NCBI GenBank assembly: GCA_030429105.1
Contig: JAUIDE010000003.1
Location: 1-64,000, forward strand
Direction of reading: 5' to 3'
Source of the DNA: Alphaproteobacteria bacterium
GTDB lineage: Bacteria > Pseudomonadota > Alphaproteobacteria > Rhodobacterales > Rhodobacteraceae
DNA: 64,000 nt
Under the pieces are notes generated by a model. That model worked only from the letters and a program-made list of their open reading frames with translations. It made no database searches and had not been told where the DNA came from. A program made the translations under genes and the position numbers. Below, piece by piece: positions 1 to 12,752 of this stretch. Numbering within the stretch: position 1 is the first letter of the stretch; the number at the start of each line of letters is the position of its first letter.

Positions 1-1642
1 CGGCCTTCTCGAACTTCTCCGGATCGTCGTTCGAGACGATGTTCCCCGCCTTGTCGAGCAGGTCGCCCTCCCGGTTGCGCTTGAAGATGGCGCGGAAGTT
101 CCAGCCGTGGCCGTGATAATCGGCGAATTGCGTGTCCTGCGCCTTCGGATTCACGTCCCGCCAGACCTCCTCGAGGAAGGCGAGCTCGCGCCACTTGCCG
201 CCGGCGGAGGCGGCCTCGGGGTTCCGGTCTAGGATTTCGCGCATCCGGCCCCAGGGGCCGTAGGTCTCTTCCTCGTGATGCTCGTCGCCGTGCCAGTATT
301 TCCGGGTGGCGACCTTCTCCTCCTTGCGGCGCTTCTGGCCGACTTCCTGCCGCCCGCGATCCACCTGCTTTTCCGGCCACATGAGCGGCGCGTCGGACTC
401 ATAGTCCCACATCGTGTAGCCGAGATAGGTGTTCACGAACATGTTGGGCTGGTGCATGTGGCAGGACATGCACTGAGAGGTCGGGATCGCCGAGGTGAAG
501 GCGTGGCGGAGCGGGTGGCCCTTTTCCCCCTTCATCTCGGGGAAGTGCTCCCCGTTGATGGTCGGGTCGATGGTGACGGTCTGCCCCTTGTTCCCGTACT
601 TCGCGTACATGCCGGAGCTTTCCCACTCGCGGTCGTTCGCGTAAGGCACATGGCAGCCGGCGCAGCCGGAGATGCGGTAGTCGCCCGGCTGGTCGTTCGT
701 GCCGAAGAACCACATGTGCGGGTCGTTGAGGCGCGTCTTGTGGATGTTCAGCACCGGGATCGCGATGCGGATGCCGGTGGCGTTCCCGCGGTTGGACTGG
801 CGGATGTCCGGCCGGCCCGGCTCCTCGAGCCGCTGGAGCTGGCCGAGCGCGTTCGGCAGGCCGAGTTCCGGGAAGATGGTGATGATGTTCCGCCCGCCCC
901 GCTCGAACACGCGGAAGACGTCCGCCGCGGGGAGGACCTCCCAGGCCGGCATCGGGTAGAGCTTCGGCAGGATGCCCTTCGCCTCCATTTCCGGGGTGAC
1001 GGCGACCGGGCTGTCCAGCACCGCGGGCTCGCCGTCTCGTGTGAAGGCCTCCCCAAGGACGTAGCGCTTGAAGGGCAGGATGCCGTTATTGTAGGCGGCC
1101 CCGCCCCAGAGCATCGCCGAGGTCGCCATGAGCGAGCGTTCCGCCGCCTGGATCTGCTTCATGTGGCAGGCCCCGCAGGCCTCCCGCACCACGCGGTAGT
1201 CCGACGGGTTCACGAAGCGGAGGAATTCGGGGCTTTCCTTGTTGATGAGCGTGTAGCTCCGCTTCGGATTGGCGGAGGTCGGCCAGTGCCAGGTCTCGGG
1301 GTAGAGGGGCAGGACATGCGCCGCCTCCATCGCCCGATTGTATTCCGGGGAGCCGGGCGCATGGCTCGCGTCGCGGAAAACGTCCGCCTGCCCGCCATGG
1401 CAATCGGTGCAGCCGAGCGGCACGGCGCCGGAGATGTGCATGGTCGGGCTGTCGGTCTTCTCGTGGCAGGACATGCAGCCCGCCGTCTTCAGCGCGACAT
1501 CGGCCGGGGACTGGCCGTTCGGCGCGGGCGGATAGAACGGATAGACCCGCTCCACCGGTTTTTCCCCCCCGGCCGCCCATGCGCCTGCGGCGGCGAGGCC
1601 GATCAGCGCGGAGAGAAGGAGGGCGAAGGGGAACCGGGTCAT
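1..1642 (-). CDS. multiheme c-type cytochrome (partial; C-terminus runs off the window)
   Basis: Open minus-strand frame from ATG at 1642 to the left edge (absent from ORF track because no stop in window): MTRFPFALLLSALIGLAAAGAWAAGG signal peptide; CXXCH motifs CMSCHEK, CTDCHGG, CGACHMK, CAGCHVP, CMSCHMHQ. Confidence 0.9.
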   Translation of the reverse strand, partial: MTRFPFALLLSALIGLAAAGAWAAGGEKPVERVYPFYPPAPNGQSPADVALKTAGCMSCHEKTDSPTMHISGAVPLGCTDCHGGQADVFRDASHAPGSPEYNRAMEAAHVLPLYPETWHWPTSANPKRSYTLINKESPEFLRFVNPSDYRVVREACGACHMKQIQAAERSLMATSAMLWGGAAYNNGILPFKRYVLGEAFTRDGEPAVLDSPVAVTPEMEAKGILPKLYPMPAWEVLPAADVFRVFERGGRNIITIFPELGLPNALGQLQRLEEPGRPDIRQSNRGNATGIRIAIPVLNIHKTRLNDPHMWFFGTNDQPGDYRISGCAGCHVPYANDREWESSGMYAKYGNKGQTVTIDPTINGEHFPEMKGEKGHPLRHAFTSAIPTSQCMSCHMHQPNMFVNTYLGYTMWDYESDAPLMWPEKQVDRGRQEVGQKRRKEEKVATRKYWHGDEHHEEETYGPWGRMREILDRNPEAASAGGKWRELAFLEEVWRDVNPKAQDTQFADYHGHGWNFRAIFKRNREGDLLDKAGNIVSNDDPEKFEKA

Positions 1643-1649
1643 GGCCGCC

Positions 1650-3863
1650 TCAATAGGTCAGAACGATGTTGGCGAGCACGGAGTAGTAGAGATCGCGCTC
1701 GCCCTGAGACGCATAGAGATCGTTGAACCCCTCGCCGGGGATCAGCGCGGCGCCCGAGAGGCGGACGACGAAGTTCTGCGTCTGGAACGGCCGCCAGATC
1801 GCGGCGACCGAGACGTCGAGCCCGATGTCGTTGTCGATCGAGCCCTGGAGCCGCAGCGCCTCCAGCGAGGAGGTGTCATCGAACCACATGTAGTTGGCGT
1901 TGCCGGAGAGGCGGAATTCCGGCGTCAGGTCGAAATCCGCGCCGACGCCGACGAGGATGATGCCCGGATTCACGAAGTTCGACTGCCCGTGCTCCTTGTT
2001 CGGCCGGAGCGAGGGGAGCACGGCGTTGCGGGAGGAAAGGCCGACTCCGGAGCCGCCGATCAGCGGGATCTGCTGCCGGATCCAGTAGCTCGTGTCGCCG
2101 CCGGCGAATTGCGGGTTCTCGAAGATGGCGTCGAAGCCGTTGCTGGTGTTGTCGAACGGATCGGAATCGCCGCTCGCGTAGAGCGCCGAAAGCCGCCAGC
2201 GCGCCCAGTCGAAATCCCGGCTCAACTCCGCCGCCGCGAAGAAGGCGGAGATGTTCGAATCCTCGCCCGTGAACGGGTTCTGGTCGTCGCCGAACGCGTA
2301 ATAGGCGGAGGCCGTCAGGTTGTAGGAGCCGATGCGGCCGTCCGCGTTGTAGCCGAGATAGAAGACGTCATAGTCCCGCTCCTGCTGCGTGCCGAAGGGG
2401 AAGGGGCGGGCCAGGAAGCCGTTGTCGTCGAAGAACCGCTCCCCGGCCTCGCGGTTGCGGTTGTAGATCGCCGTCAGCTGGCTCGTCAGGCCGAGGATCG
2501 GAAAGTCCTGCCGGTAGACGTTTGCCACGAAGATGTCGTCGTCCCGCACGTCCTGGAAAGGGTCGTTCAGGCCGGAATTCGTGTCCTTCTCCAGCCGGCG
2601 GAACCACGCGAGGTTGTATTGCCAGAGGTTGTTGTCCCAGTTGCCGAAGAACCGGACGCCGAGCTGGCTGTCCTGGAACAGGAAGCCCCGGAAGTCTGAC
2701 GAGAAGGGCTGGATGCCCGCGCGGACCGAGTAGAAGTCGTAGCGGTCCGTGATGTTGGCGACGTGATAGTCGAGGAAAAGCTCGATGATCCCGTAATGAT
2801 AGTCGAACCGGCTGGTCCCGGCCCCCGGATCGGCGCGGAGCACGCGCCGTTCGTCCACATCCGCGAAGTTGCCGTTGAGGACGCCGGTATAGCGGAATTC
2901 GATGTCCTGCGGGCGGAAGGCCGTGTCTCCGTTCAGGAGGCTGAAGCCGTGGATGAAGTTCTGGTTGAAGATGATCTGGTCCGGCTTGCCGAAGATGTCG
3001 TTCGTGCCGGGCCTCGCGGTGGACTGGACGCCGGTCGGCGTCGGGAAGCTCCGCGGCTCGATTACCGTGTCGGAGATGCCGAGAAGGATGAGGAAGCAGT
3101 CCGTCGGAAACTCGCCGATCAGCGGCGCGAGGAAGGGAAAGCAGTCCCCCTCGTAGAACGGCTTGTCGCCCTTCAGCGTGTTCTGGTTGTAGGGGTCGAA
3201 CGGGTCTTCCTTGATCAGCCCCAGCGTATCGACGAGCCGCCAGCGGTCCGGTATCGCGAGAAAGTCGTCCGGCCCCGCCGCCCGCGGCGGGGGCAGGGGG
3301 ATGGAGGTGGGGTCGATATAGGGTTCGGGCTCCAGCGGGGTCACGTCCACCCCCGGAGGGGCGCGGCGGCCGTCGAGCGTCTGGCGCCGCACGCGGCCCT
3401 CGTCCGGCTCCCCGGTCAGCAGCACGCGGTCGTTCAGGAGGAAGCCGCCGGGGCGGATCGTCGGGCCCGGCTCACCGGCCCCGGGGCCGGCGGGGATGCT
3501 CGTCGTCTCGACGCCCGAAGCATCCGGGGCGCGCCGCCAGTCGCTCTCGACTTGCGGGACGACCCCGGTATCGACCGGCGCCTGCCGGCCTTCGACGCCG
3601 GCGGGGCGCTCCCGCCCCGCATCGTCGACGATCGACGGGTCTCGCTCCACCGGCTCCGGCACCGTTTCAGGCGCGACCTGCCGAACATCGGGCTGCTGGT
3701 TACGCCGCAGGACCTGCGAGAAGACGAAGACCTCCTGATCCTTCAGCGGCCCGGCGGCGGGCAGCGGGGCTTCCGCCATTGCGGGCGCGGACCCGGCGAG
3801 CAGCGCCCCCGCCGCCGCGGCGGCGAGAAGGCCGGTTCGGGCTCTTGGCGTTCGCGGCGTCAT
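1650..3863 (-). CDS. outer-membrane beta-barrel protein (porin-like, alternating amphipathic/aromatic strands)
   Basis: Signal peptide MTPRTPRARTGLLAAAAAGALLAGSAPAMAEA; aromatic-rich strands (RFDYHYGIIELFLDYHVANITDRYDFYSVRAGIQPF); C-terminal aromatic YYSVLANIVLTY. Confidence 0.75.
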   Translation of the reverse strand: MTPRTPRARTGLLAAAAAGALLAGSAPAMAEAPLPAAGPLKDQEVFVFSQVLRRNQQPDVRQVAPETVPEPVERDPSIVDDAGRERPAGVEGRQAPVDTGVVPQVESDWRRAPDASGVETTSIPAGPGAGEPGPTIRPGGFLLNDRVLLTGEPDEGRVRRQTLDGRRAPPGVDVTPLEPEPYIDPTSIPLPPPRAAGPDDFLAIPDRWRLVDTLGLIKEDPFDPYNQNTLKGDKPFYEGDCFPFLAPLIGEFPTDCFLILLGISDTVIEPRSFPTPTGVQSTARPGTNDIFGKPDQIIFNQNFIHGFSLLNGDTAFRPQDIEFRYTGVLNGNFADVDERRVLRADPGAGTSRFDYHYGIIELFLDYHVANITDRYDFYSVRAGIQPFSSDFRGFLFQDSQLGVRFFGNWDNNLWQYNLAWFRRLEKDTNSGLNDPFQDVRDDDIFVANVYRQDFPILGLTSQLTAIYNRNREAGERFFDDNGFLARPFPFGTQQERDYDVFYLGYNADGRIGSYNLTASAYYAFGDDQNPFTGEDSNISAFFAAAELSRDFDWARWRLSALYASGDSDPFDNTSNGFDAIFENPQFAGGDTSYWIRQQIPLIGGSGVGLSSRNAVLPSLRPNKEHGQSNFVNPGIILVGVGADFDLTPEFRLSGNANYMWFDDTSSLEALRLQGSIDNDIGLDVSVAAIWRPFQTQNFVVRLSGAALIPGEGFNDLYASQGERDLYYSVLANIVLTY

Positions 3864-3888
3864 TTCTCGCCTCCCTCGCATGACGGCA

Positions 3889-6033
3889 TCAGAGCACCTG
3901 ACACGGATTCTGCACGTCGCTCGCGATGAACGGGCGGAACGGGCAGGAGACGTAGCGGAGCCGGTTCCGCCCGTCCGGCACGAGCGTATCGGAGCGGATC
4001 GCCTCCGGCGCATGGCCGAGCCCGTTCCCGAGCCGGAGCCCGGCGCGGCGCAGGCCGAGGGACGAGATCATGTCGTCCTGGTCGATGCCGTCGCCGGAGA
4101 CGCCGATGCCGCCGATGAGTATTCCGTTGCGGTAGATCGGGACGGAGCCGGCGAAGATCTGCGCCCCGTTCGACAAGGCCGGCCGCGGGAAGGCCAGACC
4201 GTCCCGCGCGGAGAGGCCGGTGCATCCCACCGGCGTGTCCGCGCCGAGGCCGAGGATGAAGAAGACATGCTGCAGGATGTTCCCGCCGATCAGGTCGAAC
4301 TGCAGCCCCGTGGAGAAGGGGGACCAGTTCTGCGTCGGGTCGGGCGAGTTGAAGGGGCGGGAGAAGGGGCCGTTCGGAGACGGCGTCCCGTTCTGCTGGC
4401 GCTGCACCCCGTCCGGGAAGAACGGGCGGGAGAGGTTGCCGTTGCCGCGGTCGGAGAAGGCGATCGTGCCGGTCAGCGCGTCGGGCCCGATGAAGGCGCG
4501 CGCGGCGTCCACGTAATCCTGGAGCGGCGGGATGTTGATGACCTGCGCGCCCACATTCGCCGTCGCCCCGGCGACGGCGCCAAGCTCCGTTCCCGCCGTG
4601 GCGGAGGAGAAGAACATCGCCGTGCGCGCCTTCTGCAGCGACACGTCGGTGCCGAAGATCGGCCCGTCCGGCGTGCGGGCGACGCCGAGGATCTCCCCGT
4701 TCGTGTCGACAATGGAGACGGTTACCTGGATGCGGCTGTTGAGCGGCTGGCGGATCTGCGCGCGCCCGGCGAGCGCAACGCCGAGCGCCTCGTCGATCAA
4801 CGCGATGACTTCCCGCCGCGTCAGCCGGTTCGCCGGGTCGCCGCCCGGCGCGTCCCCCGCCGCCTTCGGCGAGAAGCGCGGATCCCCGTTCTCGTCCACC
4901 AGCACATAGGCGCTCAGGTTCTCGAAGGGGCTGCCGCCGGCGAGGCTTGTCGCCGGAACGTAGCCGGAGGCCGGGTCGCCATAGGCCACGCCGGCCAGGA
5001 CGTCCGCAGCCGTTCCTGTCGGCGTCGCGTAGTAGCCGTTCACGGGGATCAGATTGCCCTGAAACCCGTTGCTTATCGTCGCGAAGGACGGCGCTGCAGC
5101 GGGGTTGGAGCGCAGCCGGTCCGTATCGTCCACGGTGTCGGTGAAGCGGAGCGTGTTGCCCTCCACCGTGATCCGCTCCGCCCGGATCTGCGCCGGGGCT
5201 TCGAAGCCGGCGGTTCCGGCGAGCGCGATCAGCTCGTCGACCATGTCCGCATCCGAATCGATGTCGGTGACCCGGAGGTCCAGCCCGTAGATCCCGTCCG
5301 CGATCACGCCGATCCCGCCGACGAGCGTGCCGTTCTTGTAGAGCGGCAATCCCCCCGGATCGGCGGCGAGGCCGAGCGGGGAGCGGCGGGGACCGACGGT
5401 CGATCCCACAACTGTCCCCGCTCCGTTGTCGGAGGCGAAGCGGGTGGAGAGGTCTGAACAGGGCAGCTGGCTGAACTGCACGCCGAAGAGCGGGCCTCCG
5501 GCCTGGAAGGTCTGCTCCGGATTGAAGTTCTCCTGCACGATCTGGCTCGCCGTGCGAGTCGTGAACGCGTTTCCGCCGGAGGAAAGATACGCCCCGGTGA
5601 CCGCCTTCGCGATGGCGCCGACGGGCGCCGCGCCCGGGATCGTCAGACCGTCGAGGCCCGACCCGGCGGCGCCCACGAGCACCGTCCCGGAAAGCGGGCC
5701 CTGGTCGATGGTCCGCGGCACCTCCGCCTGCGCGAGGAGCTGCGCCGGCGCGCCGTTCATCTGGAAGACGGCGAGGACGTTGCCAACGCGATCCACCACC
5801 GCGATGGCGGCGGGCGCGCCCTGCGCGATCGCCTCGGCCGCGGCCTGCGCGATGATCTGCTGGACCTCGGCGCTGGTGAGCGCCTCCAGCGGCGGGAAGT
5901 CGATCAGCCCGGTGAAGCGGGTGCCGGGCTCCGGCGTCGCGCCGTTGTCGCTCCCCGTCTCCTCCCCGCCGCAGGCGGCGAGGAGGCCGAGGGTCAGGAG
6001 GCCGGCGAGACCGTATCGGAAGGGGGCCTTCAT
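3889..6033 (-). CDS. lipoprotein with two GlcG/HbpS-like (heme-binding DUF336-type) domains
   Basis: Lipobox LLAACGG; N-domain SAEVQQIIAQAAAEAIAQGAPAAIAVVDRVGNVLAVFQMNG...YKNGTLVGGIGVIADGIYG, C-domain TRREVIALIDEALGVALAGR...VSIVDTNGEILGVARTPDG...YRNGILIGGIGVSGDGIDQDD. Confidence 0.75.
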   Translation of the reverse strand: MKAPFRYGLAGLLTLGLLAACGGEETGSDNGATPEPGTRFTGLIDFPPLEALTSAEVQQIIAQAAAEAIAQGAPAAIAVVDRVGNVLAVFQMNGAPAQLLAQAEVPRTIDQGPLSGTVLVGAAGSGLDGLTIPGAAPVGAIAKAVTGAYLSSGGNAFTTRTASQIVQENFNPEQTFQAGGPLFGVQFSQLPCSDLSTRFASDNGAGTVVGSTVGPRRSPLGLAADPGGLPLYKNGTLVGGIGVIADGIYGLDLRVTDIDSDADMVDELIALAGTAGFEAPAQIRAERITVEGNTLRFTDTVDDTDRLRSNPAAAPSFATISNGFQGNLIPVNGYYATPTGTAADVLAGVAYGDPASGYVPATSLAGGSPFENLSAYVLVDENGDPRFSPKAAGDAPGGDPANRLTRREVIALIDEALGVALAGRAQIRQPLNSRIQVTVSIVDTNGEILGVARTPDGPIFGTDVSLQKARTAMFFSSATAGTELGAVAGATANVGAQVINIPPLQDYVDAARAFIGPDALTGTIAFSDRGNGNLSRPFFPDGVQRQQNGTPSPNGPFSRPFNSPDPTQNWSPFSTGLQFDLIGGNILQHVFFILGLGADTPVGCTGLSARDGLAFPRPALSNGAQIFAGSVPIYRNGILIGGIGVSGDGIDQDDMISSLGLRRAGLRLGNGLGHAPEAIRSDTLVPDGRNRLRYVSCPFRPFIASDVQNPCQVL

Positions 6034-6455
6034 TCGCTGCGCTCCGCTGCTTCGAACCAGCCGTATTTCAGCCCTTCGGGCGTCCGGTAGGCGAGGGTGA
6101 TGGTCATGGAGGAGACGCCGGAGGGCGGCGCGGTGAAGAGCTTGAAGACGAGCTCGTCCCCCTCCCGCCGCGCGGCGGCCGGGATCAGCGCGGCGCGGTC
6201 GCCGTTCCATTCCGTCCAGAACCCGTCCCTGTCCCGCATCCAGACCTGGTTGGAGGAGGCGGGGCGCAGGAGGGCGTGGACGGAGAGCACCTCGTCGCCG
6301 CCCGCGTCCACCCGCGCCTCCAGCGCGCCGCCGGGCGCGAAGGAGACCGCCGGCAGCGCCGCGCCGTCCGCGCTCAGCCGTTCCGCGGCCGCGAGGCCGG
6401 ATGCGGCGAGCGCGGCCAGAAGCAGCGGCGGAAGGGCGATGAATGGTCTGCGCAT
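6030..6455 (-). CDS. small exported protein of unknown function
   Basis: Signal peptide MRRPFIALPPLLLAALAASGLAAAE; 4-nt overlap with downstream lipoprotein gene. Confidence 0.7.
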   Translation of the reverse strand: MRRPFIALPPLLLAALAASGLAAAERLSADGAALPAVSFAPGGALEARVDAGGDEVLSVHALLRPASSNQVWMRDRDGFWTEWNGDRAALIPAAARREGDELVFKLFTAPPSGVSSMTITLAYRTPEGLKYGWFEAAERSE

Positions 6456-6491
6456 CGGGTTTCTCCCTGCTGCGCGCCCCGGAGGGCGCGG

Positions 6492-8387
6492 CTATTGCGT
6501 GGCGCGCACCACGGTCGAACGCTCCGCCGCATTCCGCCGGTCCACCATCGCCTGCCCATGCGGCGGCGACATTGGGCCGTAGGGGTCGGCGTGGAACACA
6601 TGGCAGGCGAGGCACTCGGAGGAGGCGCTGGCTCCCGCCTGCTCACCCTTGTGGCAATCGCGGCAGTTCTCGATGGGCGGCATCAGCACGTCCGTGCTCG
6701 ACTTGGACGTGGTCGCCGCGTGGCAGGAGACGCAGTCCATCGCGAAATGCGGCTCGTGGTTGAAGTAGCTCTTCGGCATCCAGTGCCGTTGCAGCAGCGC
6801 GCCCTGCACGGTCCAGACCGTGCGGCCGCGCGAATCCGGCTCCGCCGAGGCCTGCGCGACGTGGCAGTCGCCGCAGAGGCTGACCTCCATGATGCGCTTC
6901 AGCTCCAGCTCCGCCTGTTCGGCGGCCCAGTCCAGCCCCTCCGCCCGGCCGGCGAGGCCGATCGCCTCGCCCGGGCGGCGGCGCGCGCTCTCCGGGGCGC
7001 CGGGGACGTTGAGGCCGCCTTCGAGCACGCGCGCGCCATAGTAGTCGTGCACGATCTCCTGCACTTCCACCGGCTTGGCGTGCGGCAGCTCCCGCAGCAC
7101 GTCGAGATTGTCGGGCTTGAAGACGAGCTCGTGACAATAGCCGCAATCGCGCTCCATCTCGATCGGCCGCATCAGCGCGCCGTCTGCCTGCGGCTGGTGG
7201 CAGGACTCGCAGTTCATCTGCCAGGTCTTGTCCGCGACCCGGCCCAACCCGCGCACGCCCTCCTTGTTCAGGTGGACGTCATGCGGGAACTTGAGGCCGG
7301 ACTGCTCCGAGAGCGGATATTTCGGGTCGAGCGGCGCGCGCGCGACGGTGGGGAGCAGCGCGCCGTCCACCGCCGTGCCGACGCCGGTGACGAGCGTCGG
7401 GCGGAATTGCGGATGCTGGAGCGCGAAGTCGGAGACGTCATAGAGCTCGGTCGCGCTGGCCACGGCCTTCAGGTTCGCGTGGCAATCGGTGCAGGTGGAG
7501 GACGCCTCCTCGATCGGGCTCTCGCCGCCGACATGCTCCTTATGGCAGGCGGCGCAGCGCGCGAGGGACGGATCGTCCGCCGCGGAAGCGTGCTTCGCGA
7601 CGTCGAAATGGTTCGCCGTCTCGGCGTGGCAGGCGAGGCAGGCCTCGTTCGTCGTCATCTCGAAGGGGCGGAGATGACAGGCCGAGCAGTTCTCGGCGAG
7701 CCCGGCATGGACGTTGGACATCGGGCCCGAAAGCCAGAGCGTCTCCATCGGCGTGAAGAGGGGGGCCGGCGGCGGCTCCGTCCCCTCCGCAAGGCTGGTT
7801 CCGAGCGCGACGAGCGTGGCGACGCTGCCGGCCCGCTCTTCCGCCTTCTCCGGCGCGACCATCGCGTTGACGACGACGGCGTCCGGCGACGGGGCTTCGC
7901 GCAGGAGGATGACGGAAAGCGGCCAGGCGATGAAGAGCACGAGCGCGGCGAGCGCCAGGAGCCACGAAAGGCGGCGGCGCGAGGGCAGCGTGTCCGCGAT
8001 CCGCTGCGGGGTGCGATAGGCGCGCGCCTGCGCCTCGACGCGGGCGAGGGTGATCGCCGCGTCGGCATGGGCGCCGGGCGCCTCGCAGCCGATCTCGTAG
8101 GCGCCGACCCTGCAGCTTTCCCCCGGCCGCAGCGCGACGGAGTCGACCATCTTGCCGCCCGATTCGATCAGCGCGCCGCCGACGCCTTCGAGCCGGAGCC
8201 CGCCGGGGCCCGCGCTGAGCGTCGCATGGTGATAGGCGACGTTCACGTCGGGCAGGTTCACGTCCATGTCCGAGCCGCGGCCGACGCGGAAGACGTCGGC
8301 CTCCAGCATGGTCTCGCGCCGCGAGACGTCCTCGCTGTCAGGCCGGCGCTTCAGGGTGATGAGCGAAAGACGCATGCCGGGCCTCAC
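6492..8387 (-). CDS. FHA-domain, single-TM, decaheme c-type cytochrome
   Basis: N-terminal FHA-like VFRVGRGSDMDVNLPDVNVAYHHATL, TM LSWLLALAALVLFIAWPLSVILL, then ten CXXCH motifs (CSACH, CLACH, CAACH, CTDCH, CESCH, CGYCH, CGDCH, CVSCH, CRDCH, CLACH). Confidence 0.9.
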   Translation of the reverse strand: MRPGMRLSLITLKRRPDSEDVSRRETMLEADVFRVGRGSDMDVNLPDVNVAYHHATLSAGPGGLRLEGVGGALIESGGKMVDSVALRPGESCRVGAYEIGCEAPGAHADAAITLARVEAQARAYRTPQRIADTLPSRRRLSWLLALAALVLFIAWPLSVILLREAPSPDAVVVNAMVAPEKAEERAGSVATLVALGTSLAEGTEPPPAPLFTPMETLWLSGPMSNVHAGLAENCSACHLRPFEMTTNEACLACHAETANHFDVAKHASAADDPSLARCAACHKEHVGGESPIEEASSTCTDCHANLKAVASATELYDVSDFALQHPQFRPTLVTGVGTAVDGALLPTVARAPLDPKYPLSEQSGLKFPHDVHLNKEGVRGLGRVADKTWQMNCESCHQPQADGALMRPIEMERDCGYCHELVFKPDNLDVLRELPHAKPVEVQEIVHDYYGARVLEGGLNVPGAPESARRRPGEAIGLAGRAEGLDWAAEQAELELKRIMEVSLCGDCHVAQASAEPDSRGRTVWTVQGALLQRHWMPKSYFNHEPHFAMDCVSCHAATTSKSSTDVLMPPIENCRDCHKGEQAGASASSECLACHVFHADPYGPMSPPHGQAMVDRRNAAERSTVVRATQ

Positions 8388-9223
8388 CAGTAAAAGAAGA
8401 CGATGAGGACATGCGCGATCAGCGTCGCGATCAGCCCGATTGTCACCGGAACGTGGATCCAGAGCCAGACGTCCATCATCGCCTTGAAGCTCAGGTCGCG
8501 CCGCAGGCGGGCGGATATCTCCGCCTTGCGGGAAAGCGCGGCGATCATCTCCGTCGCCGCGATCTGCTGTTCCGTATCCGTGATGCGCTCCGCCTCGGCC
8601 CGCGCCTTGGCGAGCGCGGAGGCGGCGGCGCAGCGGCGGCTGGAGCCGGAGAGGAGCTGGAAGAAGCCGCCGCCGATCCGCGTCTCCAGCGCTTCGCGCG
8701 CGGCGCCGGCGAAGGCGTCCGGGAGGCGCTGGGCGAGGCGCTGCAGGCGGATGTCGATCTCCGCGCTCTCGCGCCGCAGGCCCTCGGCGGACTGGCCGGA
8801 CATGTTCTGCGACATCAGCCGCGGATAGCGAACATAGGCGAAGACACCGAAGCCGCCGGAAAGGATCACCAGCATCATCAGCGCATAGGCCAGCGTATGG
8901 ACGTTCCAGCCGAATTCGAAGCCGGTATGCAGCGTGGCGATCACGACGAGCGAGATGCCGAGATAGACATGGGCCGAGGTCCAGCCCTTCACGCCCTTCG
9001 CGCCGGTCGAGAAGCCGCGCTTCTTCACCCCGAGCCAGGTGAGCCAGAGGATGAGCGCGAGCCCGAGCCCGCCGAGCCCGTAGCCGACCCAGGTGCCGCC
9101 GTTCCGCCCGCCGACTGGCGCATAGGCTGAGTAGATCACGATCACGAGGAGGCAGAGCCAGGCTGAGCGCTTGAACCAGCGGAACCGCTCATAGACGAGA
9201 AAGGAGGAATGGGCGGACATCAC
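8384..9223 (-). CDS. membrane b-type cytochrome-like protein
   Basis: Multiple TM helices; His pairs spaced 14 residues in two helices: HVYLGISLVVIATLH and HVPVTIGLIATLIAH; overlaps neighbours by 4 nt on both sides. Confidence 0.7.
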   Translation of the reverse strand: MMSAHSSFLVYERFRWFKRSAWLCLLVIVIYSAYAPVGGRNGGTWVGYGLGGLGLALILWLTWLGVKKRGFSTGAKGVKGWTSAHVYLGISLVVIATLHTGFEFGWNVHTLAYALMMLVILSGGFGVFAYVRYPRLMSQNMSGQSAEGLRRESAEIDIRLQRLAQRLPDAFAGAAREALETRIGGGFFQLLSGSSRRCAAASALAKARAEAERITDTEQQIAATEMIAALSRKAEISARLRRDLSFKAMMDVWLWIHVPVTIGLIATLIAHVLIVFFYW

Positions 9224-11610
9224 GCGCCCTCCCTGATCCGCTGGAACAGCTCTTCCGGCCCCATGCGGACGACCGCCCCGGTCGGGCAGGCGCGTACGCA
9301 GGCGGGCCCCGCCTCATCCCCGGCGCAGAGGTCGCACTTGCGCGCAAGCTCCTTGTTCTCCTTCGATTTCTTGGCCTTTCCGGCCTCGCCGGGCCCGTAT
9401 TTCCCGCCGAAGACCAGCCAGGAGAAGAGGCCGCCCTTCGGCGGCGGCAGGGCCGAGAGCTTGATCGCGTCATAGGGGCAGTTGCGGGCGCAGTTGCCGC
9501 AGCCGATGCAGGTCTCGTTCACATAGACCGCGCCCCTCGCGTCCCGCTGGAGGGCGTTGGGCGGGCAATCGGCCATGCAATGCGGCTGCTCGCAATGGCG
9601 GCAGGAGATCGGGACATGGATGTTGGCGTAGGTCGGCCCCGCCGCCCGGTCGAGCCGGCTGACGCCGCCATGCGTCTCCGCGCAGGCCTTCTCGCAGTAA
9701 TCGCAGCGGACGCAGAGGCTCTCATCGATGACGATGGCGTTGGTCGCCTCGCCGAGGCCGACCGAGGTGAGGAACTCGATCTTCTTCGAAAGCTCGTCGT
9801 CCGAAACCTTCTGGTTGCCTTCCTCGCGCTCCCGCGCCACCCGGTCGACGATGGCGCGGAGCTTCGGCTTGCCGTCCAGCAGGGAGCGGAAGAGCGCGCC
9901 GTCGAGCTGCACCGCCTCGACCGGCACGGTCGCCCGCACGGTGGCGGAGCGGACCTGCCGGGTAAGCAGCGCCATCTCGCCGACGAACTTGCCGGCGGGC
10001 ACATAGGCGAGCACGACGTCGGAGCTTCCGACCCGCTTCGAGACGGTGCAGGAGCCGGAACGGATGACGAAGAGCGCGTCGCCCTCCTCGCCTTCCTTGA
10101 TCAGCGCCTCGCCGCGGCCGAATTTCTTTGTCTCCGCCGCCGCGATCAGCTCGGTCAGGTCGCTCCGCGTCAGCTCGGGGGAGAGGAAGGTCTGCAGCTG
10201 GCGGAGGATCGCCGTCTCGTCCATCACCTGTTTGGCGACCGGGGAGGAGGCGATGAGCTTCAGCGCCGCGGTGCGCGGGATCTCGATGCAGACGGCGCCA
10301 GCGCCCGACCGGTCCGCCTGAACGGTCGCGGTGCGGCGGCGGCCCATGATGAGGCCCATCTCGCCGAAGAAGGCGCCCTTCTCCAGCCGGAAGATCTTTT
10401 CCGGCGTCACCGGAATCTCGACCGAGCCCTCGTGGATGACGAAGAGGCTGTCCCCCGCCTCGTCCTTCCGCATGAAGGGCTCGCCCGGCTTCTTGAAATG
10501 CACCTCGGCGTCCAGCAGGAACTCGGAGAGCTGGAGGAGCGTGAGGCCCTGGAAGAGCGGCACGGCGTCCTTGATCCGCTCCAGCATCGACTGCACGTCG
10601 CGATAGCCGGGGATGACCTGGAACTTCTTCGCCAGCTCCTTGCGGATGATGCTCTCGACCGGGTCGCCGATGATCGTGTGGATCACCTCGTAGCCCTGGT
10701 TCATGCAGTGCTTGATGAGCGGATAGCCGGCGAGCGCGCCGATGATGTAGACGCCCGGCCGGTCCGCCTCGTAGGTCTCGGAGACGCGGGGAACGTCCGC
10801 CCCCTCCTCGAAGACGCCGCCCACGGCCTCGACGAAGGCGCGCGGCGCCATGGCGCCGAGCCGCGCGATCACCCGGTCCGCCGGTACGACGCGCTCGCCT
10901 TCCGGCGTCTTCAGCACGATGGCCCGCTCCTCCACCCGCGCGGGCTCGGCGTTGTAGGCGCATTCGAGGAGCTCGTCCTTGATCGCCGTGAGGATGAGCG
11001 AGATGTTGCCCGACTTGGCGCGTGAGAATTCGCGGCTGCGGTTGACGATGGTGACGCGGTTCTGCGCCTGCGCGAGGGCGACGGCGTTCTCGATCGCCGC
11101 GTCGCCGGCGCCGATCACCACCACGTCCTTGTCGAAATAGTCGCGCGGGTCGTCGAGCTGGTATTCGGTCAGCCCGTTATCGGCGCCGGGGATCTTCCGC
11201 GCGTCGAGCTTGCGGAGGTTGCCCTGCAACCCGATGGCGAGCACGACGTTGCGGGCCTTAACGCTGTCGCCCTTCGCGGTGCGGATCGTGAAATCGCCCT
11301 TTTCACCCTCGATCGCCGTGACTTCGGCGTTGAACATGACGTTCACGCCGGAGCCTGCCGTCCCTTCGTCCCACCAGCCGAGGATGTTCTCCCGCGTGTC
11401 CGCCTCGAACTTCAGGTCGGATTGCAACGGCAGGTTGTCCGGCGTCGCCATGACATATTTGCCGCGCTGGTACTTGTAGATCGTGTCCGAAAGGTGGTCG
11501 GTCCGCTCAAGCAGGACGTGGCTTACGCCGAGTTTCGCCGCCCTCGTCGCCGCGCTCGCCCCCGCAGGGCCCGAGCCGACGATCGCGATTTCGTACGTTT
11601 CCGTCATCAC
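9220..11610 (-). CDS. fused FAD/NAD(P)-binding oxidoreductase - two cyclic-nucleotide-binding domains - 4x[4Fe-4S] ferredoxin domain
   Basis: GSGPAGASA and VVIGAGDAAIENA Rossmann motifs; phosphate-binding-cassette motifs FFGEMGLIMGRRRTATV and FVGEMALLTRQVRSATV; CVRCDYCEKAC, CRHCEQPHCMADCP, CIGCGNCARNCP, CDLCAGDEAGPACVRACP. Confidence 0.9.
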   Translation of the reverse strand: MMTETYEIAIVGSGPAGASAATRAAKLGVSHVLLERTDHLSDTIYKYQRGKYVMATPDNLPLQSDLKFEADTRENILGWWDEGTAGSGVNVMFNAEVTAIEGEKGDFTIRTAKGDSVKARNVVLAIGLQGNLRKLDARKIPGADNGLTEYQLDDPRDYFDKDVVVIGAGDAAIENAVALAQAQNRVTIVNRSREFSRAKSGNISLILTAIKDELLECAYNAEPARVEERAIVLKTPEGERVVPADRVIARLGAMAPRAFVEAVGGVFEEGADVPRVSETYEADRPGVYIIGALAGYPLIKHCMNQGYEVIHTIIGDPVESIIRKELAKKFQVIPGYRDVQSMLERIKDAVPLFQGLTLLQLSEFLLDAEVHFKKPGEPFMRKDEAGDSLFVIHEGSVEIPVTPEKIFRLEKGAFFGEMGLIMGRRRTATVQADRSGAGAVCIEIPRTAALKLIASSPVAKQVMDETAILRQLQTFLSPELTRSDLTELIAAAETKKFGRGEALIKEGEEGDALFVIRSGSCTVSKRVGSSDVVLAYVPAGKFVGEMALLTRQVRSATVRATVPVEAVQLDGALFRSLLDGKPKLRAIVDRVAREREEGNQKVSDDELSKKIEFLTSVGLGEATNAIVIDESLCVRCDYCEKACAETHGGVSRLDRAAGPTYANIHVPISCRHCEQPHCMADCPPNALQRDARGAVYVNETCIGCGNCARNCPYDAIKLSALPPPKGGLFSWLVFGGKYGPGEAGKAKKSKENKELARKCDLCAGDEAGPACVRACPTGAVVRMGPEELFQRIREGA

Positions 11611-11714: not shown

Positions 11715-12752
11715 TCATTCGGGCGAGGAGATGACCGAAAAATGGCCGCCGCCTCCGCAGCAATGCCGGAGAGATAGGTAATATCGGCCCGGCTGCAACT
11801 CCGCGGAGAACCGGAAACCGTAACCCCTTCCCGAATCGTCGTCGGCGTAGAGGGCGCGCCCGTCCGCCGTCTCGATCCGGCCCGTGAGGTCGGCCCCCGG
11901 CGCGGAGGCGAAGGCGAAGCGGCCCGGCTCCGTCACCTCGACGGAGAGCCGGGCTTCGCCGCCGAGCGGCAGCACGCCTTCCGCCGTTCCGCCGGGGGCG
12001 AGCGCGCCGCCCGTGGCGGCGGGCGCGGGGGCGGCGCCGGGGAGGATCGTGAGGGGCAGGGTCGCCGCGGGGCGAAAGGGATCGCCGGGCGCGTAGATCC
12101 GCACTTCGGTCTCGCCGGGCCGGGCGTCGCCCGAGATGGAGACGGCGAGGAGGGGGGCGCCCTCTTCGTCCGTTCCGATCTCGACCCTCACGCCGTCCGG
12201 CCCGCGGGCGGTCGCGCCTTCGGGCGGTGCGCTTTCGAGCCGCGCCTCGGCGGAGCCGCCGACCGGCGCGGCGAGGCCCGCCGCCGCCTTCTCCCGCGCC
12301 GCGCCGAAGGGGTTCCCGCTGGGCGCGGCGCCGCCGAGCGCCGGGGTCATGCGCCGAAGGGCGTCGCAGGCGTCCCCCCGGCTCAGCGCCGCGCCGTCAT
12401 GGACGGAGACGCCGGCTGCGCCCGTCTCGATCATCACCGGCCGGAGCGCGAGCCCTTCGCCCTGCGCCTGGCCGTAGAGCGCGAGCGCGGCGGCGCGGGC
12501 GCCGAGCGCGGCTTCGGCCCAGAAGGCGGCGGCCTCGGCGGAGGCGGCGTCGGCCGGGGCGATCTCCACGCCCGAGGGGCCGAGCCGGAGCCAGACGGCG
12601 CCGGGGGGCGGCTCCCGCTCCCGCAGGGCCGCGCAATCGGCCTCGAAAGCCGTTTCGGCGCGGGCGAGGCGGGCGAGCCAGGCGTCGAGCCCCGCGGCCG
12701 GCGCGGCGGCGGGGAAGAGGGCGAGAAGGGACATGAGCGTCGCGCGGATCAT
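11715..12752 (-). CDS. exported hypothetical protein with C-terminal PPC-like beta domain
   Basis: Signal peptide MIRATLMSLLALFPAAAPAAG; C-term GRFAFASAPGADLTGRIETADGRALYADDDSGRGYGFRFSAELQPGRYYLSLRHCCGGGGHF. Confidence 0.55.
   Translation of the reverse strand: MIRATLMSLLALFPAAAPAAGLDAWLARLARAETAFEADCAALREREPPPGAVWLRLGPSGVEIAPADAASAEAAAFWAEAALGARAAALALYGQAQGEGLALRPVMIETGAAGVSVHDGAALSRGDACDALRRMTPALGGAAPSGNPFGAAREKAAAGLAAPVGGSAEARLESAPPEGATARGPDGVRVEIGTDEEGAPLLAVSISGDARPGETEVRIYAPGDPFRPAATLPLTILPGAAPAPAATGGALAPGGTAEGVLPLGGEARLSVEVTEPGRFAFASAPGADLTGRIETADGRALYADDDSGRGYGFRFSAELQPGRYYLSLRHCCGGGGHFSVISSPE

Follow-up and report, generated by a model that had tools for sequence, protein, structure and literature searches.

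The 64,000-nucleotide stretch of Rhodobacteraceae DNA analysed here (the window; positions 1-64,000 of contig JAUIDE010000003.1) begins with an operon of seven minus-strand genes, which we call G, F, E, D, C, B and A from its upstream end. The operon probably encodes an electron export chain that is driven by NAD(P)H (reduced nicotinamide adenine dinucleotide or its phosphate) and gated by cyclic nucleotides (cNMP). We infer that the electrons flow outward, in the following order. G would pass electrons from NAD(P)H through flavin adenine dinucleotide (FAD) to four 4Fe-4S clusters, a transfer that would be switched by cNMP bound to the tandem domains of G, and F would carry them across the inner membrane on two b hemes. 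E, held in the inner membrane and docked through its FHA-like domain, would conduct them over ten c hemes into the periplasm, from where a 4-heme c554-like cytochrome would relay them to A. Finally, A would be held at the outer membrane together with the lipoprotein C and the porin B, and the terminal acceptor would be reduced there.

Gene content and conservation of the operon

A first-pass annotation of the window had described a redox operon with a part for each layer of the envelope, and this description is borne out by the gene content and by the recurrence of the set. All seven open reading frames are present in the order and at the places that it gave, and the 4-nucleotide overlaps that it reported between G and F (9220-9223), F and E (8384-8387) and D and C (6030-6033) are real; the remaining genes are separated by 36 (E/D), 4 (C/B) and 7 (B/A) nucleotides. 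Position 1 is the end of the contig and cuts gene A. Save for this break the operon is real and complete, and dozens of genomes share its gene set, far beyond chance. The arrangement G-F-E-(D)-C-B-A is found in several alphaproteobacterial families and in named members of the Alpha-, Gamma- and Betaproteobacteria; betaproteobacterial loci and a small number of others have the altered order E-C-B-A-(4-heme)-G. Among 399 evenly sampled proteobacterial genomes, 11 had A and 16 had F, and F was present in every one of the A carriers (Fisher test, 5e-18, a value that ignores kinship). In three of these (G551, G421 and G597) the G-F-E cluster is hundreds of kilobases away from the 4-heme-C-B-A cluster or on another contig, so the pairing of A with F is not mere linkage. 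The first-pass annotation had staked its proposal on the genes staying together in other genomes, and they do co-occur.

The predicted cytosolic entry protein and electron donor

Gene G (9220..11610, minus strand) encodes the predicted cytosolic entry protein, in which Pfam and NCBIfam searches identified, in this order, a YpdA-like FAD/NAD(P) domain, two cNMP-binding domains and a HydN/HycB-like iron-sulfur domain. Its matches in the PDB are Bdr/YpdA, the regulatory domains of PKA and PKG, and HycB. Residues 6-295 match Bdr with E=2e-20 and also match TIGR04018, the latter with a score under the family cut-off. The GxGDA and NR..F.R motifs are conserved in the alignment of homologues, and the motif favours NADPH over NADH as the predicted donor. 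The C-terminal part contains exactly 16 cysteines, enough for four 4Fe-4S clusters. A function as thioredoxin reductase was ruled out, as the flavin part (residues 1-340) contains no CxxC. In the cNMP domains, the glutamate and arginine of the phosphate-binding cassette (E417/R426 and E545/R554) are conserved in 100% of the homologues (86/86), a motif that supports control of G by cyclic nucleotides. A gene for a calcineurin-type phosphoesterase adjoins E in 29 of 80 named loci, and one record annotates it as CpdA, a cyclic AMP phosphodiesterase.

The best evidence for NAD(P)H as the donor comes from non-homologous NAD(P)H modules that are swapped at the same place. A sister system (loci L150-L155 and L180) has, as a gene of its own, an FNR-type NAD(P)H reductase (FAD_binding_6, NAD_binding_1 and Fer2, i.e. 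2Fe-2S) and encodes a protein, G2, with the cNMP and 4Fe-4S domains and no FAD domain. The G2 gene adjoins those for F2 and for the decaheme protein E2, which has a cysteine-rich N-terminus, and the loci also hold 4-heme and 5-heme cytochromes and a barrel. Profile-profile comparison relates F to F2 (hhalign, E=3e-19) and E to E2 (E=6e-31). Two unrelated NAD(P)H modules thus appear to feed homologous iron-sulfur, b-type and c-type parts; the sister system is apparently undescribed too. A direct tie between G and F is seen in genome G252, where the two are fused in one open reading frame of 1118 amino acids with E adjoining, and genome G364 has a similar long open frame across F.

Two neighbours of G were noted in other orders. 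A protein of about 575 amino acids without a Pfam match adjoins G in locus L078 (2816-4483) and in 10 other loci in Lysobacterales. In Sphingomonadales, a CcmH/CycH-type TPR gene is divergent from G (L079:8885-9856, similar in 22 loci) and is possibly a dedicated cytochrome maturation helper.

Proposed crossing of the inner membrane

Gene F (8384..9223, minus) encodes an inner-membrane protein with two histidine pairs, H85/H99 and H257/H271. The histidines of each pair are 14 residues apart and invariant in 30 homologues, and the pairs are also kept in the G-F fusion and in F2. This pattern agrees with the two histidine pairs, about 13-14 residues apart in transmembrane helices, that mark bis-heme b membrane proteins, and F is likely one of them.

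The product of gene E (6492..8387, minus) combines a degenerate FHA-like cytosolic domain, one transmembrane helix at about residues 143-161 and a periplasmic decaheme c domain with ten CxxCH motifs. In 13 homologues these motifs are accompanied by 10 conserved non-motif histidines, 9 of which are present in 100% of 70 homologues. Ten conserved distal histidines for ten hemes are as expected of a wire, and with this predicted ligation E agrees, by sequence motif, with the all-bis-His decahemes of the MtrCAB/PioAB type.

The first-pass annotation had seen two kinds of regulatory domain built into the redox proteins. The cNMP-binding one holds up, given the invariant cassette residues of G, whereas phospho-signalling through the FHA domain does not. 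In 70 homologues of E the arginine of the FHA-like domain is invariant, the asparagine is present in 40, and the serine position of SxxH is variable; the Pfam match, itself under the Pfam cut-off, is to the YscD cytoplasmic domain. A role as phosphothreonine sensor is unsupported on these grounds, and for the same reasons docking is the more likely function predicted for this domain.

The outer-membrane side

Gene A (2..1642, minus) specifies an exported decaheme cytochrome, of which the window covers the first 547 residues with 5 CxxCH motifs. Extending the gene leftwards, as had been suggested, was possible, as contig C31 from this assembly continues it (L156:2863-5109, minus) with hemes 6-10 and an LVIVD beta-propeller; the frame is kept and about 3 residues are lost between the contigs. 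The joined protein has 10 CxxCH motifs and a C-terminal beta-propeller, like a 1290-amino-acid homologue from the same genus; ten CxxCH motifs and a C-terminal LVIVD propeller are the rule in full-length homologues of A. An eighth gene on C31, convergent to A, encodes the 4-heme c554-like cytochrome. A is the best-conserved protein of the set (~60-65% identity), and both choice-of-anchor and propeller matches were found in it. The ExtM profile matches 11 of 11 A homologues (best E=8e-23), although with 73 bits against a curated cut-off of 800 and over only part of hemes 6-10. In the AlphaFold model of an A homologue the propeller has high confidence, and 700 of the 1200 residues fall below a predicted local distance difference test (pLDDT) score of 50. 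A fold search with the propeller returned generic propellers only, and a sequence search of solved structures with the A, B and F profiles yielded nothing useful.

Gene B (1650..3884, minus) encodes an outer-membrane beta-barrel. Its start codon is uncertain: the open reading frame as listed starts at 4013 and overlaps C, and the start in homologues is later (3884 or inside). The AlphaFold model of B has 18 strands and a mean pLDDT of 64.5, with the strand region mostly at 75-95 and a long N-terminal extension of low confidence. The best Foldseek matches are the AlgE and OprD folds (AlgE, E=2.6e-14), and a weak Alginate_exp match was found in 2 of 12 B homologues. No match to PF11854, the MtrB/PioB family, was found among the B homologues or in the host genome, nor did B match the named ext porin models. 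The first-pass statement that the architecture is unlike MtrCAB, OmcB or PioAB is upheld by this AlgE-like model and the missing PF11854 barrel. According to the model, B has fewer strands than the 26 or more of a barrel able to enclose a decaheme, and a threading of A through B is unsupported.

Between E and B lie two further genes. C (3889..6033, minus) encodes a lipoprotein with HbpS-like domains (PF03928, E=2e-19, 70 bits against a cut-off of 25, in three stretches) and the lipobox LAAC; a lipobox-like motif is present in 16 of 32 homologues. D (6030..6455, minus) encodes a small exported protein with a signal-like N-terminus and an unassigned function; a homologue occupies the same place in 10 loci, and the gene is kept in part of the family. 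Upstream of G, gene H (11715..12752, minus) encodes an exported protein that is 43-60% identical to proteins of two genomes of the same genus, in which the gene order is kept, and has weak matches elsewhere; it is probably not a core part of the set.

The exit end of the chain also appears to be exchangeable. In loci L055 and L126, G-F-E has other partners, a 5-heme cytochrome and a different barrel (in L051 they accompany G alone). Eight further G-bearing alphaproteobacterial genomes divide evenly: four have A but no 5-heme cytochrome, and four have the 5-heme cytochrome but no A, its gene being on a different contig from G in two of these. Homology between B and the alternative barrel was undetectable, and A and the 5-heme cytochrome share a local heme-motif match only.

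Comparison with known systems and alternative explanations

Work on known outer-membrane conduits, which draw on the quinol pool, has dealt with Fe(II) oxidisers and anaerobic metal reducers. The operon resembles MtrCAB, MtoAB and PioAB in joining multiheme cytochromes at the inner-membrane and outer-membrane sides with an outer-membrane barrel, but E is anchored in the inner membrane, the donor does not look like CymA or quinol, and the barrel is of another kind. MsrPQ and the NOX/FRE ferric reductases send electrons from NAD(P)H and flavin outward through the paired-His hemes of a membrane protein, without energy conservation. The operon would share this logic, to which it adds iron-sulfur clusters, predicted cNMP gating and a multiheme relay; no profile match of F to the MsrPQ or NOX/FRE families was found. 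Over its flavin part, G resembles the YpdA/Bdr disulfide reductases, but it differs from them in its cNMP and 4Fe-4S domains, in the lack of CxxC and in a score below their cut-off. In Geobacter, the extHIJKLMNOPQS cluster combines a porin, 10-, 12-, 5- and 4-heme cytochromes, an iron-sulfur protein and a cytochrome b; an extI mutant showed reduced selenite and tellurite reduction (PMC5877670). Periplasmic reduction of selenite and tellurite with a substrate porin is one proposal for the cluster. The two systems are alike in clustering a porin, multiheme cytochromes, an iron-sulfur protein and a b-type protein, and in the partial match of A to ExtM. They differ in the rhodanese-like protein and the Rieske/cytochrome b pair of ext, in the NAD(P)H-FAD-cNMP-4Fe-4S protein through which electrons would enter here, and in the HbpS-like lipoprotein and the propeller on A. 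No match of F or G to a Rieske protein or a cytochrome bc-type b subunit was found in Pfam or NCBIfam.

A periplasmic reductase served by a substrate porin of its own is one possibility, to which we give somewhat less than even odds: B would import a small oxyanion or metal complex and A would reduce it in the periplasm. This is a specific form of the export chain, and the confidence placed in the two overlaps. The ExtM match of all the A homologues, the resemblance of B to a solute or polymer channel and the high conservation of A, as expected for an enzyme, speak for it, as does the ext cluster, which likewise joins a porin to multiheme cytochromes and in which loss of extI weakens selenite and tellurite reduction (PMC5877670). 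The low score and partial coverage of the ExtM match weaken this reading, and ext works through a Rieske/cytochrome b pair where the present operon has an NAD(P)H module. Given the AlgE-like B and the ExtM-matching A, a bare conduit is no likelier than a substrate-specific reductase. An MtrCAB-like surface conduit, in which A, or part of E or C, would sit in or pass through B and serve extracellular respiration onto minerals, electrodes or humics, is unlikely in our estimate. It would account for multiheme proteins at the inner membrane and beside an outer-membrane barrel, for the lipoprotein C and for the propeller and choice-of-anchor matches of A, which are common in surface proteins. MtrB, however, has about 26 strands, so the modelled 18-strand AlgE/OprD-like barrel is far smaller, and the MtrB/PioB family is absent from the host genome. 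The donor also looks NAD(P)H-type and not quinol, and many named carriers are cultured aerobes (Sphingopyxis, Sphingobium, Novosphingobium and Lysobacter relatives). The evidence on the donor and the carriers likewise speaks against the respiratory conduit that the first-pass annotation had considered, and that on the barrel speaks against a cytochrome-in-barrel conduit of the Mtr type.

Two further explanations carry less weight. The chain might serve redox upkeep of the envelope, such as reduction of oxidised proteins or heme handling, with a logic like that of MsrPQ or DsbD; the HbpS-like domains of C, the CcmH/CycH-type TPR gene beside G in Sphingomonadales and the non-energy-conserving logic agree with this. 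We regard it as distinctly improbable, given that domain searches found a thiol or methionine sulfoxide reductase domain in none of the parts and that a 10-heme terminal protein would be unusual for such a job. Least probable by a wide measure is a reverse flow, in which A would draw electrons from an external donor, for example Fe(II), and the chain would reduce NAD(P)+. Phototrophic Fe(II) oxidisers use outer-membrane cytochromes, and the host has type II reaction-centre genes, but these genes are missing in 7 of the 11 carriers, and electrons would have to move inward against the membrane potential without a quinone-coupled or proton-driven part.

Several observations count against the NAD(P)H-driven, cNMP-gated export chain itself. 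Binding of cyclic nucleotides by G is predicted from motifs, and the outward direction of the electrons is suggested by analogy. Profile searches of F gave no match to any known b-type family, and the heme part of A gave no reliable AlphaFold model, the propeller being the only reliable part. The co-occurrence statistic for A and F is inflated by kinship. Two genomes (G156 and G096) carry G without adjoining F and E, and four F-bearing genomes outside Alphaproteobacteria have neither A nor the 5-heme cytochrome (in G365, one of the four, B and C are found where a contig ends), which means that the known exit set is incomplete.

Distribution, transfer and host

Outside its own genus, the family of the window was sampled with 33 genomes, and E was absent from every one, from which we conclude that the genus probably acquired the operon. 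The whole set is located on Sphingobium megaplasmids in two loci (L056 and L057), one of them typed as conjugative, so the set can move between strains. The host genome itself (G000) contains two PF00124 matches on contig C184 (2543-4244), i.e. photosynthetic reaction-centre genes, and the host is thus likely a phototroph. Photosynthesis as the function of the operon was rejected, as 7 of the 11 A carriers lack reaction-centre genes; such genes occur in 4 of the 11 A carriers and in 27 of the 388 other genomes (p=0.007, confounded by kinship).

Significance

No quinone- or proton-linked part was found among the proteins of the operon. As quinones would be bypassed and electrons would flow outward along the membrane potential, the export chain would not conserve energy, which fits a tight control by cNMP and the mostly aerobic carriers. 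Supply from NAD(P)H instead of quinol likewise suggests a non-energy-conserving reductase and not respiration; reductive detoxification, reduction of metals or oxyanions, or surface redox upkeep is the more likely role. No published description of the system was found in a full-text search of open-licence literature. It is possible, and we put it forward with reserve, that the operon represents a new kind of envelope electron transport, one that would carry the electrons of cytosolic NAD(P)H, independently of quinones, as far as the outer membrane in aerobic Proteobacteria, under second-messenger control and with exchangeable entry and exit modules. The gene set is small and the carriers are tractable strains. 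If this reading is true, a chain resembling extracellular electron transfer would operate in aerobic Proteobacteria, where such transfer is unexpected, and common aerobes would invest reducing power in the periplasm or at their surface to an end yet to be assigned.

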